Shown: positions 4,454 to 53,458 of the stretch, one piece after another
Position numbering within the stretch: position 1 is the stretch's first letter
Layout: the number at the start of each line of letters is the position of its first letter
Assembly: GCA_004123355.1 (NCBI GenBank)
Contig: SCHM01000002.1
Span: 9,397,569 to 9,461,568 of the forward strand
DNA from: Amphirosellinia nigrospora
Lineage: Eukaryota > Ascomycota > Sordariomycetes > Xylariales > Xylariaceae
Direction of reading: 5' to 3'
DNA length: 64,000 bases
Translations under genes and position numbers: made by a program
Notes under the pieces: generated by a model
Database searches by the model: none
What the model was told of the DNA's origin: nothing
What the model saw: the letters and a program-made list of their open reading frames with translations, nothing else

Positions 4454-4589
4454 GCCCGGTTAGCTCAATCGGTAGAGCGTGAGACTCTTAATCTCAAGGT
4501 TGCGGGTAAGCAAACATTCAAGAAAAAAAAATGTTATCGGTGGATTTGTGACTAACCTTAGCGTGAAGGTTCGACCCCCGCATTGGGCT
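4454..4589 (+). tRNA. tRNA-Lys(CUU) interrupted in the T-arm by 63 nt
   Basis: The gene folds as tRNA-Lys: acceptor GCCCGGT (4454-4460) with ATTGGGC (4582-4588), D-arm GCTC/GAGC, anticodon arm TGAGA-CTCTTAA-TCTCA (4480-4496, anticodon CTT at 4487-4489), variable loop AGGTT, T-loop TTCGACC (4570-4576) and 3' T-stem CCCGC (4577-4581). The 5' T-stem GCGGG (4502-4506) is separated from the T-loop by 63 nt. Taking the insert as 4506-4568 (GTAAGC...GTGAAG) and removing it gives a perfect 73-nt tRNA. There is no intron at the canonical 37/38 site. The A box and a B-box-like GGTTCGACC (4568-4576) remain intact, and T runs follow at about 4632. Whether the transcript matures is unknown. Confidence 0.85.
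4506..4568 (+). other. Spliceosomal-type intron-like insert inside tRNA-Lys
   Basis: The insert begins GTAAGC, contains the full fungal branch-site word TGACTAAC (4549-4556), and ends AG 13 nt after the branch adenosine (4555). A nearer AG (4560-4561) is only about 6 nt from the branch point, probably too close to be used. Its 63-nt length is typical of introns in this window. The exact ends are ambiguous by one base (4507-4569 is equivalent) because a G lies at both edges. It has a run of nine A near 4522-4530 and AACCTT (4554-4559), which is complementary to AAGGTT (4496-4501) of the tRNA. What is seen is the sequence; splicing by any machinery is inference. Confidence 0.6.
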
Positions 4590-5038
4590 CAATTCCTGAT
4601 GCCTCTCATTAAATGGGAGCAGCGACCAAACTTTTTCCTTTTTTCTTCATTATTCCTTCCCTTACTCATAGGCTCTATTCTTTTCATTTCATCCTGTTAC
4701 TTTCTACTCATTTTTCAACCTCAAGCTCAAATTTATCGCGTCTATTCCGATTTTGCTGCGATCTGGTACTAGATAACGATGTTGTATACCTATAGGTATA
4801 GACCTTTAACATGATTGCGTTTTACATATAGCGACAATACTAGATTATTTGATCCAAAGCAATATTTGCTGCTTTGATGCCATGCTAAGTTGCCGAGGTC
4901 TCCGTGTTGCTAACGTCGTTGGATTATGCAGGACTGGAGGGGCCACTACCTATGACCCTGATCTATATTCCCTCCGACGCGTCAGGGTTTGCATAGTATC
5001 CTTAGCATCACTTACGGTCAATTCAATTCAATTCAATC
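4590..5038. promoter_or_regulatory. Spacer between tRNA-Lys and 5039 gene
   Basis: T-rich runs just after the tRNA (about 4632-4650) could end Pol III transcription. The rest is the promoter and leader of the downstream gene. A pentanucleotide microsatellite (ATTCA repeats, about 5018-5037) abuts the start codon at 5039, so it would lie in the 5' leader. Confidence 0.4.
5018..5037. repeat. ATTCA microsatellite
   Basis: Three full copies of ATTCA (5021-5035) with partial copies on both sides lie immediately upstream of the start codon at 5039. This is a simple tandem repeat in the presumed 5' leader. Confidence 0.85.
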
Positions 5039-52252: not shown

Positions 52253-53458
52253 ATGAAGCCGTCTACACAAGTCACACTGCGGCTTGCAGCTCGCAAAATA
52301 AGCCCGTCGCCGAGGCACTACACCCCTCTCCTCGCTGCCCGTCACATCCACTCCACATCCGCCTCACCTGCTACCGTCTCCCCGATCCATGGCACAGGAC
52401 CGCCGCCACAGCCTCCGCGCCCGGCCGCCGACAGCGCCGGTGCACGCATCGAGCGACGGAAGAAGCATGCCGCACTACTAGAGAGGGCACAGGAAATACG
52501 GGCGTCGACCCGGTCCGCCTCCGCTGCCACGACAGAGGACAAGAACACACAATCGGCCGTGGCCAACCCGCTCGCGCGGCGGCGGTTCTGGAAACATGTG
52601 CACGTGCGCGAAGTAGACGGGGCGTTGGAGGTCCACCTCGACACACGCCCGCTGCGACGGCCGACGAACAAGGAAATCATACGCATACCCGCGACGAAAC
52701 CGCTGCTCGCCGGCGCGCTGGCGCTCGAGTGGGACCTGCTCGTCTCGGCGCAGCAGGCTACGAGGCAGCATCTCATCCCCCTGACGAGCCTCGTGTGTCG
52801 CGCGCTCGACATCGCCGACGACGACGCGGGCCGGGACGTGAGTGAAAAGACGAGAGGGGAGGAGAAGGAGGAGGAGGAGAACGCCGTGAACGAGAGTCTG
52901 CGGACGGGCATCGCCCGCATGTTGATGCGCTACCTCGACACGGACTCGCTTCTCTGCTGGGCCCCGCCGCCGCGCCACGGCCACGACGCCCCGGACGCGG
53001 CGGGGAAGACGCTCCGGGAAATCCAGAAACAGGCGGCCGAGGAGGTCGTGGCGTACCTGAGCACCCACGTCTGGCCGGGCATCGAGATCGAGCCGGCCCT
53101 CGACAGCGAGGGCATCATGCCCCGCGGCCAGAAGCCCGAGACTCGCCAGGTCATCGAGGGCTGGATCGTGGGGCTCGGCCCGTGGGAGCTGGCTGGCCTG
53201 GAGAGGGCCGTGCTTGCTGGGAAGGGGTTGCTGGGCGCGGTGAGGCTGCTTGTTGAGTGGAGCGAGGGCTTCGTCGGCGTGGGGGGTGAGGAGAGATCGT
53301 TCGGTGTCGAGGAGGCGGCTAAGATGGCGAGTATCGAGGTCGATTGGCAGATTGGGAATTGGGGCGAGGTGGAGGATACGCATGATGTTGAGAAAGAGGA
53401 TCTACGACGCCAGCTGGGGAGCATGATACTCCTTGTTAGTGGTACAGGGGGGAAATAA
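52253..53458 (+). CDS. atp12: ATP12, F1-ATPase assembly chaperone
   Basis: Mitochondrial chaperone that binds free F1 alpha subunit during ATP synthase assembly. Single exon, 401 residues, frame intact. The N-terminus (Arg/Ser-rich, almost free of acids for about 60 residues) is a typical presequence. The core begins RRFWKHVHVREVDGALEVHLDTRPLRRPT and continues LALEWDLLVSAQQATRQHLIPLTSL; the C-terminal half has LRYLDTDSLL-like MLMRYLDTDSLLCWAP and the WELAGLERAVLAGKGLL block, all Atp12 hallmarks. An acidic insert (GEEKEEEENAV, near residue 205) interrupts the region before the RYLDTD block; its 39-nt length preserves the frame. Coding DNA is GC-rich. Confidence 0.95.
   Translation: MKPSTQVTLRLAARKISPSPRHYTPLLAARHIHSTSASPATVSPIHGTGPPPQPPRPAADSAGARIERRKKHAALLERAQEIRASTRSASAATTEDKNTQSAVANPLARRRFWKHVHVREVDGALEVHLDTRPLRRPTNKEIIRIPATKPLLAGALALEWDLLVSAQQATRQHLIPLTSLVCRALDIADDDAGRDVSEKTRGEEKEEEENAVNESLRTGIARMLMRYLDTDSLLCWAPPPRHGHDAPDAAGKTLREIQKQAAEEVVAYLSTHVWPGIEIEPALDSEGIMPRGQKPETRQVIEGWIVGLGPWELAGLERAVLAGKGLLGAVRLLVEWSEGFVGVGGEERSFGVEEAAKMASIEVDWQIGNWGEVEDTHDVEKEDLRRQLGSMILLVSGTGGK

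Follow-up and report, generated by a model that had tools for sequence, protein, structure and literature searches.

The window, a stretch of 64,000 nucleotides of Amphirosellinia nigrospora (C4:9397569-9461568 of the 48.1-Mb assembly that was searched as the genome), contains a tRNA gene split in the T arm. Rfam model RF00005 gave a full-length tRNA match at 4454-4589 on the plus strand (49.6 bits), with the T-arm insert modelled as an insertion, and the anticodon CTT identifies the gene as tRNA-Lys(CUU). ARAGORN did not call it, even with anticodon-loop introns of up to 120 nt permitted. With the tRNA numbered by hand, the insert lies between positions 52 and 53 (Table 1). Because GGT stands at both ends of the insert, four registers of excision yield one identical spliced product, and one of these four registers is GT..AG. 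The first-pass annotation had described a 63-nt GT..AG insert with a GTAAGC donor, a branch word, and an AG 13 nt further on, and both the RF00005 match and the signals within the insert bear this out. Its statement that the A box and a B-box-like element survive also holds; the latter, which reads across the junction, survives because the last base of the intron is a G. When the flanks are joined, all four tRNA stems form, and the spliced body differs from the intronless copies described below at one base, an acceptor-stem C to T that gives a G-U pair, so that the description of the product as a perfect tRNA-Lys was right about the stems and slightly too strong about the sequence. The acceptor of the window copy is AAG, and a competing TTAG lies 7 nt upstream of the insert end.

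Table 1. Features of the split tRNA-Lys(CUU) gene in the window (window positions) and related loci in the genome
Feature	Coordinates	Strand	Remarks
5' exon, tRNA-Lys(CUU) positions 1-52, anticodon CTT	4454..4505	+	RF00005 match
A box TAGCTCAATCGG	4461-4472	+	inside the window 5' exon
63-nt insert between tRNA positions 52 and 53	4506..4568	+	spliceosomal-type signals
Donor GTAAGC	4506-4511	+	
Branch word CTAAC, branch A at 4555	4552-4556	+	sole CTRAY, 13 nt before the 3' end
Acceptor AG	4567-4568	+	context GAAG
B box GGTTCGACC	4568-4576	+	intact across the exon junction
3' exon, tRNA positions 53-73	4569..4589	+	
3' trailer, common to all eight tRNA-Lys(CUU) genes	4590..4631	+	alignment
Covarying trailer hairpin	4604-4618	+	
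T5 and T6 runs, candidate Pol III terminators	4632..4644	+	sequence
L002	C4:1512508	minus	59-nt insert, GTGAGT..CTGAC..CCAG
L003	C1:5977560	minus	59-nt insert, GTGAGT..CTGAT..CTAG
L004	C1:5363267	minus	55-nt insert, GTGAGT..CTAAC..GCAG
L008	C5:3030425	plus	63-nt insert, GTGAGT..CTGAC..CTAG
L041	C1:12141474		damaged tRNA 5' half, then GTGAG donor; no 3' half within the 120 nt inspected

A genome search with the window gene returned nine places, its own locus among them. Three are intact intronless tRNA-Lys(CUU) genes (L005, L006, and L007) with identical 73-nt bodies. Four further tRNA-Lys(CUU) genes (L002, L003, L004, and L008) are split at the same site as the window copy by inserts of 55 to 63 nt that have other sequences. 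The joined bodies of L002 and L003 are identical in sequence to the three intronless copies and, like that of the window gene, fold with all stems. The body of L004 has lost one C, which leaves a 6-nt T loop on folding; since the loss lies in a run of C, a sequencing error is possible. L008 carries two G-to-A changes (one of them in the A box) and a deletion, and its joined body forms a 3-pair D stem and a 4-pair T stem; it is also the one exception among the eight genes in its 5' exon sequence. L003 is the sole split gene without a blemish, the window copy, L002, L004, and L008 each having some, and the working genes may thus number two to four of the five. The first-pass annotation had suggested that several intact tRNA-Lys(CUU) copies, together with a lack of spliced reads, would mark the window gene as a dead copy; three intact intronless copies supply half of that picture.

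The inserts were compared with spliceosomal introns. Donors fit GTRAGY in all five (GTAAGC once, GTGAGT four times), and each insert contains exactly one CTRAY word, with the branch A 13, 13, 13, 9, and 13 nt from the 3' end. For spliceosomal introns, the accessible text of PMC5832005 gives a distance of 6 to 36 nt between branch site and acceptor, and all five inserts pass a CTRAY test over that range (branch A at 9 to 13 nt). The acceptor is YAG (CAG or TAG) in four of the five, the window copy with its AAG being the fifth. Insert lengths of 55 to 63 nt compare with a median of 61 nt for 22 coding introns of the genome, which were collected by a frame-based heuristic whose filter included the motifs and admitted 45 to 94 nt. 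Among 1,459,380 genomic segments with a length of 55, 59, or 63 nt, 13 had the arrangement GTRAGY..CTRAY..AG (∼9e-6); when random genomic 63-mers were put in the place of the insert, 15 of 485,972 were removable by such signals, register ambiguity being allowed (∼3e-5). By these sequence tests, the inserts would qualify as spliceosomal (U2-type) introns, except that the acceptor of the window copy departs from YAG. The absence of T4 runs was dropped as evidence for introns, because four of the five tRNA introns but also 15 of the 22 heuristic coding introns are without one.

Exons and insert cores have diverged to very different degrees. In all 10 pairs of split copies, the exons differ at 0 to 4 of 73 aligned columns and the cores at 23 to 37 of 55 to 68, a contrast that is marked in every pair (Fisher p of 5e-9 or lower). 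Core similarity was equalled by 39 or more of 200 shuffles in six pairs and by 4 to 11 of 200 in the other four, where the compared part includes the branch word. As a pattern of sequence conservation, the contrast between exon and core speaks for selection on the split genes. If an intronless copy had converted a split gene across the site, the intron would have been lost, so that conversion does not easily explain alike exons in split genes. Concerted evolution could contribute to the likeness. A single fresh insertion cannot account for five genes that share one insertion site and have retained their splice signals and, for the most part, their tRNA bodies while the insert cores diverged. 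Between the two outcomes offered by the first-pass annotation (splicing in a new way or a freshly inactivated copy), the five-gene family favors the former and disfavors the latter. A resemblance between the window intron and the U6 intron described below (2 of 200 shuffles as high) was set aside as 1 of 15 comparisons, with the branch word in the compared part.

The 3' trailer offers a second, weaker line for selection beside the exon/core contrast. In the alignment of all eight genes, five of six hairpin pairs show two-sided changes, a score reached by none of 500 shuffles in a control that takes no account of relatedness among the copies. Three of the six two-sided cells, read from the alignment by eye, fall in split genes (one in L004, two in L008); one pair is broken in L002 and one in L008. 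The trailer also reads GCxxC-C in all five split genes versus GCAAC-G in all three intronless ones, a difference that fits one gain, or one loss, of the intron. A structured trailer precedes the T run in all eight tRNA-Lys(CUU) genes; behind many other tRNAs of this genome, a T run follows within 10 nt. At window 4580-4602, the first 8-nt block of the trailer is complementary to the tRNA 3' end (GCATCGGG/CCCGATGC in the intronless copies), and this pairing would be an alternative to the acceptor stem. It was not retained as a conserved structure: 92% of its cells are paired, and covariation is not above that of shuffles.

These data bear on whether the split genes are degenerating or already inactive, one copy having received an intron or intron-like insert and then spread by duplication while the cell relies on the three intronless genes. 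We consider this unlikely. Dead copies should decay evenly, and the family has not: the bodies of L002 and L003 equal the intronless ones despite cores that can scarcely be aligned, all five inserts retain donor, branch word, and AG, and the trailer hairpin carries compensatory changes. The intactness of the three intronless genes and the damage to the bodies of L008, L004, and L041 do fit such a history, as does the supposition, in the accessible text of PMC4090602, that eukaryotic D- and T-arm insertions, which mostly affect one of many synonymous copies, mark pseudogenes (with nucleomorphs and Cyanidioschyzon as exceptions).

A different history, also unlikely in our judgment, would leave splicing as proposed and have the introns arise independently, by repeated intron or introner-like insertion at a hot spot in the T arm. 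The cores indeed share little in the six pairs noted above, and the GGT at both insert ends resembles a short target duplication. Against repeated gain stand the four pairs with greater core similarity (branch word included), the equal distance from branch site to intron end in four of five inserts, the trailer that sets intron-bearing apart from intronless copies, and the lack of any relative of the window insert elsewhere in the genome. The first-pass annotation had raised the possibility that a copy of the insert elsewhere would reveal a short transposon. No second copy of the 63-nt sequence was found, nor of its 29-nt core with up to three mismatches, in a genome search that skips very common words and for which, of the five inserts, the window insert was used; the insert is thus not a short high-copy transposon, and transposon and introner were both rejected on its single-copy state. 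Group I and group II introns were rejected on size alone. The viral and prokaryotic DNA of viral_contigs and genome_contigs gave no match to the window locus.

Whether the split genes can be transcribed as tRNA genes was judged from their promoters and T runs. The A box is intact in the window copy, L002, L003, and L004 and altered in L008, and the B box is present in all five. In 39 of 56 tRNAs called by ARAGORN, the nearest downstream T run is T4 or T5, and the L002 intron contains TTTTT from its sixth base, which could therefore end Pol III transcription early; the other four introns are without any T4 run. An intron-containing Pol III transcript is plausible given the A box in four genes, the B box, and the four introns without T4. 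The T5 run in L002, which would hinder Pol III, and the long, structured trailer could instead mean that these loci are no longer tRNA genes and belong to Pol II transcripts or regulatory RNAs in which the likeness of the spliced form to a tRNA is incidental. This seems improbable: the A box (in four of five), the B box, and the downstream T run are retained, the bodies of L002 and L003 are kept to the base, and the trailer is common to the intronless, presumably active copies.

A precedent for an mRNA-type intron lies in the same genome. The U6 gene (L061, C4:5776924-5776774, minus strand) contains a 51-nt intron (GTAAGC..TACTAAC..ACAG) directly after ACAGAGA, so that one Pol III transcript of this fungus is very probably a substrate of the spliceosome. 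A second U6-like copy (L062, C4:10119272-10119370) is intronless and differs in its ACAGAGA region. Other noncoding RNA genes yielded no such introns: none among 33 5S matches, of which none exceeds 132 nt (47 of 2127 candidates scored), none indicated in the one SRP RNA match (285 nt versus a 293-position model), and none in the 5' stem of the one U3 match.

Further split tRNA genes were sought with the ungapped B-box pattern AGGTTCGAVYCC, which occurs at 54 places versus 29 for a reversed control. Among these 54 (53 places plus one in L050), T-arm splits were present in the five tRNA-Lys(CUU) genes only. The pattern detects only AG/GTTCGA junctions, and the Rfam tRNA search of the genome scored 63 of 1644 candidates (at least 58 matches), so that other split tRNAs may be missed. 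Among the matches listed, 14 other Rfam tRNA matches exceed 80 nt; ARAGORN places an intron at 33-40 in nine and none in five, and the latter are, by our reading, Ser and Leu tRNAs with long variable arms. Several further loci came to light. L042 (C4:7897850-7898450) holds a pair of oppositely oriented tRNA-Ser(GCU) genes separated by about 90 nt, and L082, upstream of AGGTTCGAACCC, is a tRNA-like sequence with an unusually long middle that ARAGORN calls tRNA-His with a 31-nt intron. At the dispersed loci L067, L079, L086, L087, L098, L105, L107, and L108, a B-box-like word is embedded in sequence of the type CTGCAGGTTCGAGCCCTGTAG; these stretches resemble one another and are possibly repeats or transposon ends. 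Within the window, the ATP12 protein at 52253-53455 is 83% identical to the versions of Xylaria castorea, X. acuta, and X. longipes, in line with a probable position of the fungus close to Xylaria within the Xylariaceae.

Canonical eukaryotic tRNA introns interrupt the gene at position 37/38 and are removed by the Sen endonuclease. They resemble the tRNA-Lys(CUU) inserts in residing in nuclear tRNA genes and in requiring exact removal, and they are present here, the tRNA-Lys(UUU) gene (L043) having an ordinary anticodon-loop intron; two lysine tRNAs of this fungus would thus be spliced by two different machines. The tRNA-Lys(CUU) inserts differ in position and signals, and they have no bulge-helix-bulge. 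The review used for comparison is that of Yoshihisa (PMC4090602). T-arm introns also occur in archaea, nucleomorphs, and the red alga Cyanidioschyzon merolae; according to the accessible text of PMC4090602, those of archaea and C. merolae have a bulge-helix-bulge and those of the Guillardia nucleomorph measure 3 to 24 nt, as against 55 to 63 nt with spliceosomal signals here. That the tRNA splicing endonuclease excises the present inserts through a bulge-helix-bulge, as in archaea or Cyanidioschyzon, is hardly credible despite those non-canonical T-arm introns and despite a central 4-bp helix in a single register of the window gene (outer helix 2/3, inner 0/3) and of L003 (2/3 and 2/3), because none of the five genes has full central, outer, and inner helices in any of its four correct-product registers, predicted precursor folds are unlike between copies, and the conserved features are those of spliceosomal introns. 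A Sen-type intron was accordingly rejected, the site being 52/53 rather than 37/38 and no complete motif appearing in five genes by four registers.

Spliceosomal introns in fungal noncoding RNA offer closer parallels. The U6 gene of fission yeast has an mRNA-type intron that is spliced and is thought to stem from reverse splicing, and fungal U6 introns share with those of tRNA-Lys(CUU) a short GT..AG form, a fungal branch site, and a host gene normally transcribed by Pol III (PMC10484740, accessible text). Unlike a tRNA, U6 sits in the catalytic core of the spliceosome, which explains how reverse splicing could hit it. In the accessible text of PMC5832005, U3 spliceosomal introns are reported for the vast majority of the Pezizomycotina analysed, and a paper on repeated intron insertion into fungal U6 is cited. 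Fungal U3 genes resemble the tRNA-Lys(CUU) family in having spliceosomal introns in a structured noncoding RNA and, in some genomes, both intron-bearing and intronless paralogues; however, the introns of U3 paralogues are almost always very similar by the same text, whereas the tRNA-Lys introns barely align. Among the matches listed in the open-access literature available to us, none describes a spliceosomal intron in a tRNA gene, although earlier reports may exist, and the main text of PMC4090602, in its accessible part, contains no word beginning with "spliceosom." Five split tRNA genes with five different introns are, as far as we know, new.

We conclude that a subfamily of nuclear tRNA-Lys(CUU) genes probably carries functional spliceosomal introns in the T arm that are kept under selection. 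The A and B boxes would direct transcription of the split gene by Pol III. From the transcript, the major spliceosome would take out 55 to 63 nt as a lariat after reading GTRAGY, the CTRAY branch site, and AG, and the joining of G52 to G53 would restore the T stem. Maturation to an ordinary tRNA-Lys(CUU) would then be completed by RNase P, tRNase Z, and CCA addition. A single gain, for which reverse splicing is a possible route, probably placed the intron in an ancestor of the intron-bearing copies, and the introns would have diverged afterwards almost everywhere but at their signals.

How much the cell depends on the split genes is a separate matter. The genome has three undamaged tRNA-Lys(CUU) genes that lack the intron, so that the cell may not need the split ones; three such genes might be enough for growth, and the split genes may be a reserve. 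AAG makes up 3.2% of 3007 codons in seven frames of the window, and the three intronless tRNA-Lys(CUU) genes are fewer than the seven for Val(AAC) and the six for Ala(AGC) in the same partial tRNA sample. Codon usage and intronless copy number are only suggestive here.

The family has implications beyond this locus. Removal of nuclear tRNA introns is customarily assigned to the Sen endonuclease, and these genes bear on the view, expressed in the accessible text of PMC4090602, that eukaryotic T-arm insertions mark pseudogenes. Working genes could escape tRNA finders; ARAGORN missed the window copy. Five cores at one site are natural replicas for testing how introns enter noncoding RNA. Kept spliceosomal signals in tRNA genes would show the spliceosome working on a tiny, tightly folded Pol III transcript besides U6, and the mRNA-like introns at one shared site suggest that it helps to make a transfer RNA. 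It is reasonably likely, if somewhat less so than intron function itself, that the spliceosome is a tRNA-processing enzyme in this lineage: of the eight tRNA-Lys(CUU) genes, two to five would have to rely on the spliceosome to excise a T-arm intron from their Pol III transcripts before they could supply the tRNA for AAG codons. This would be a third way of tRNA splicing beside the Sen endonuclease and self-splicing, and part of AAG decoding would be tied to spliceosome activity.
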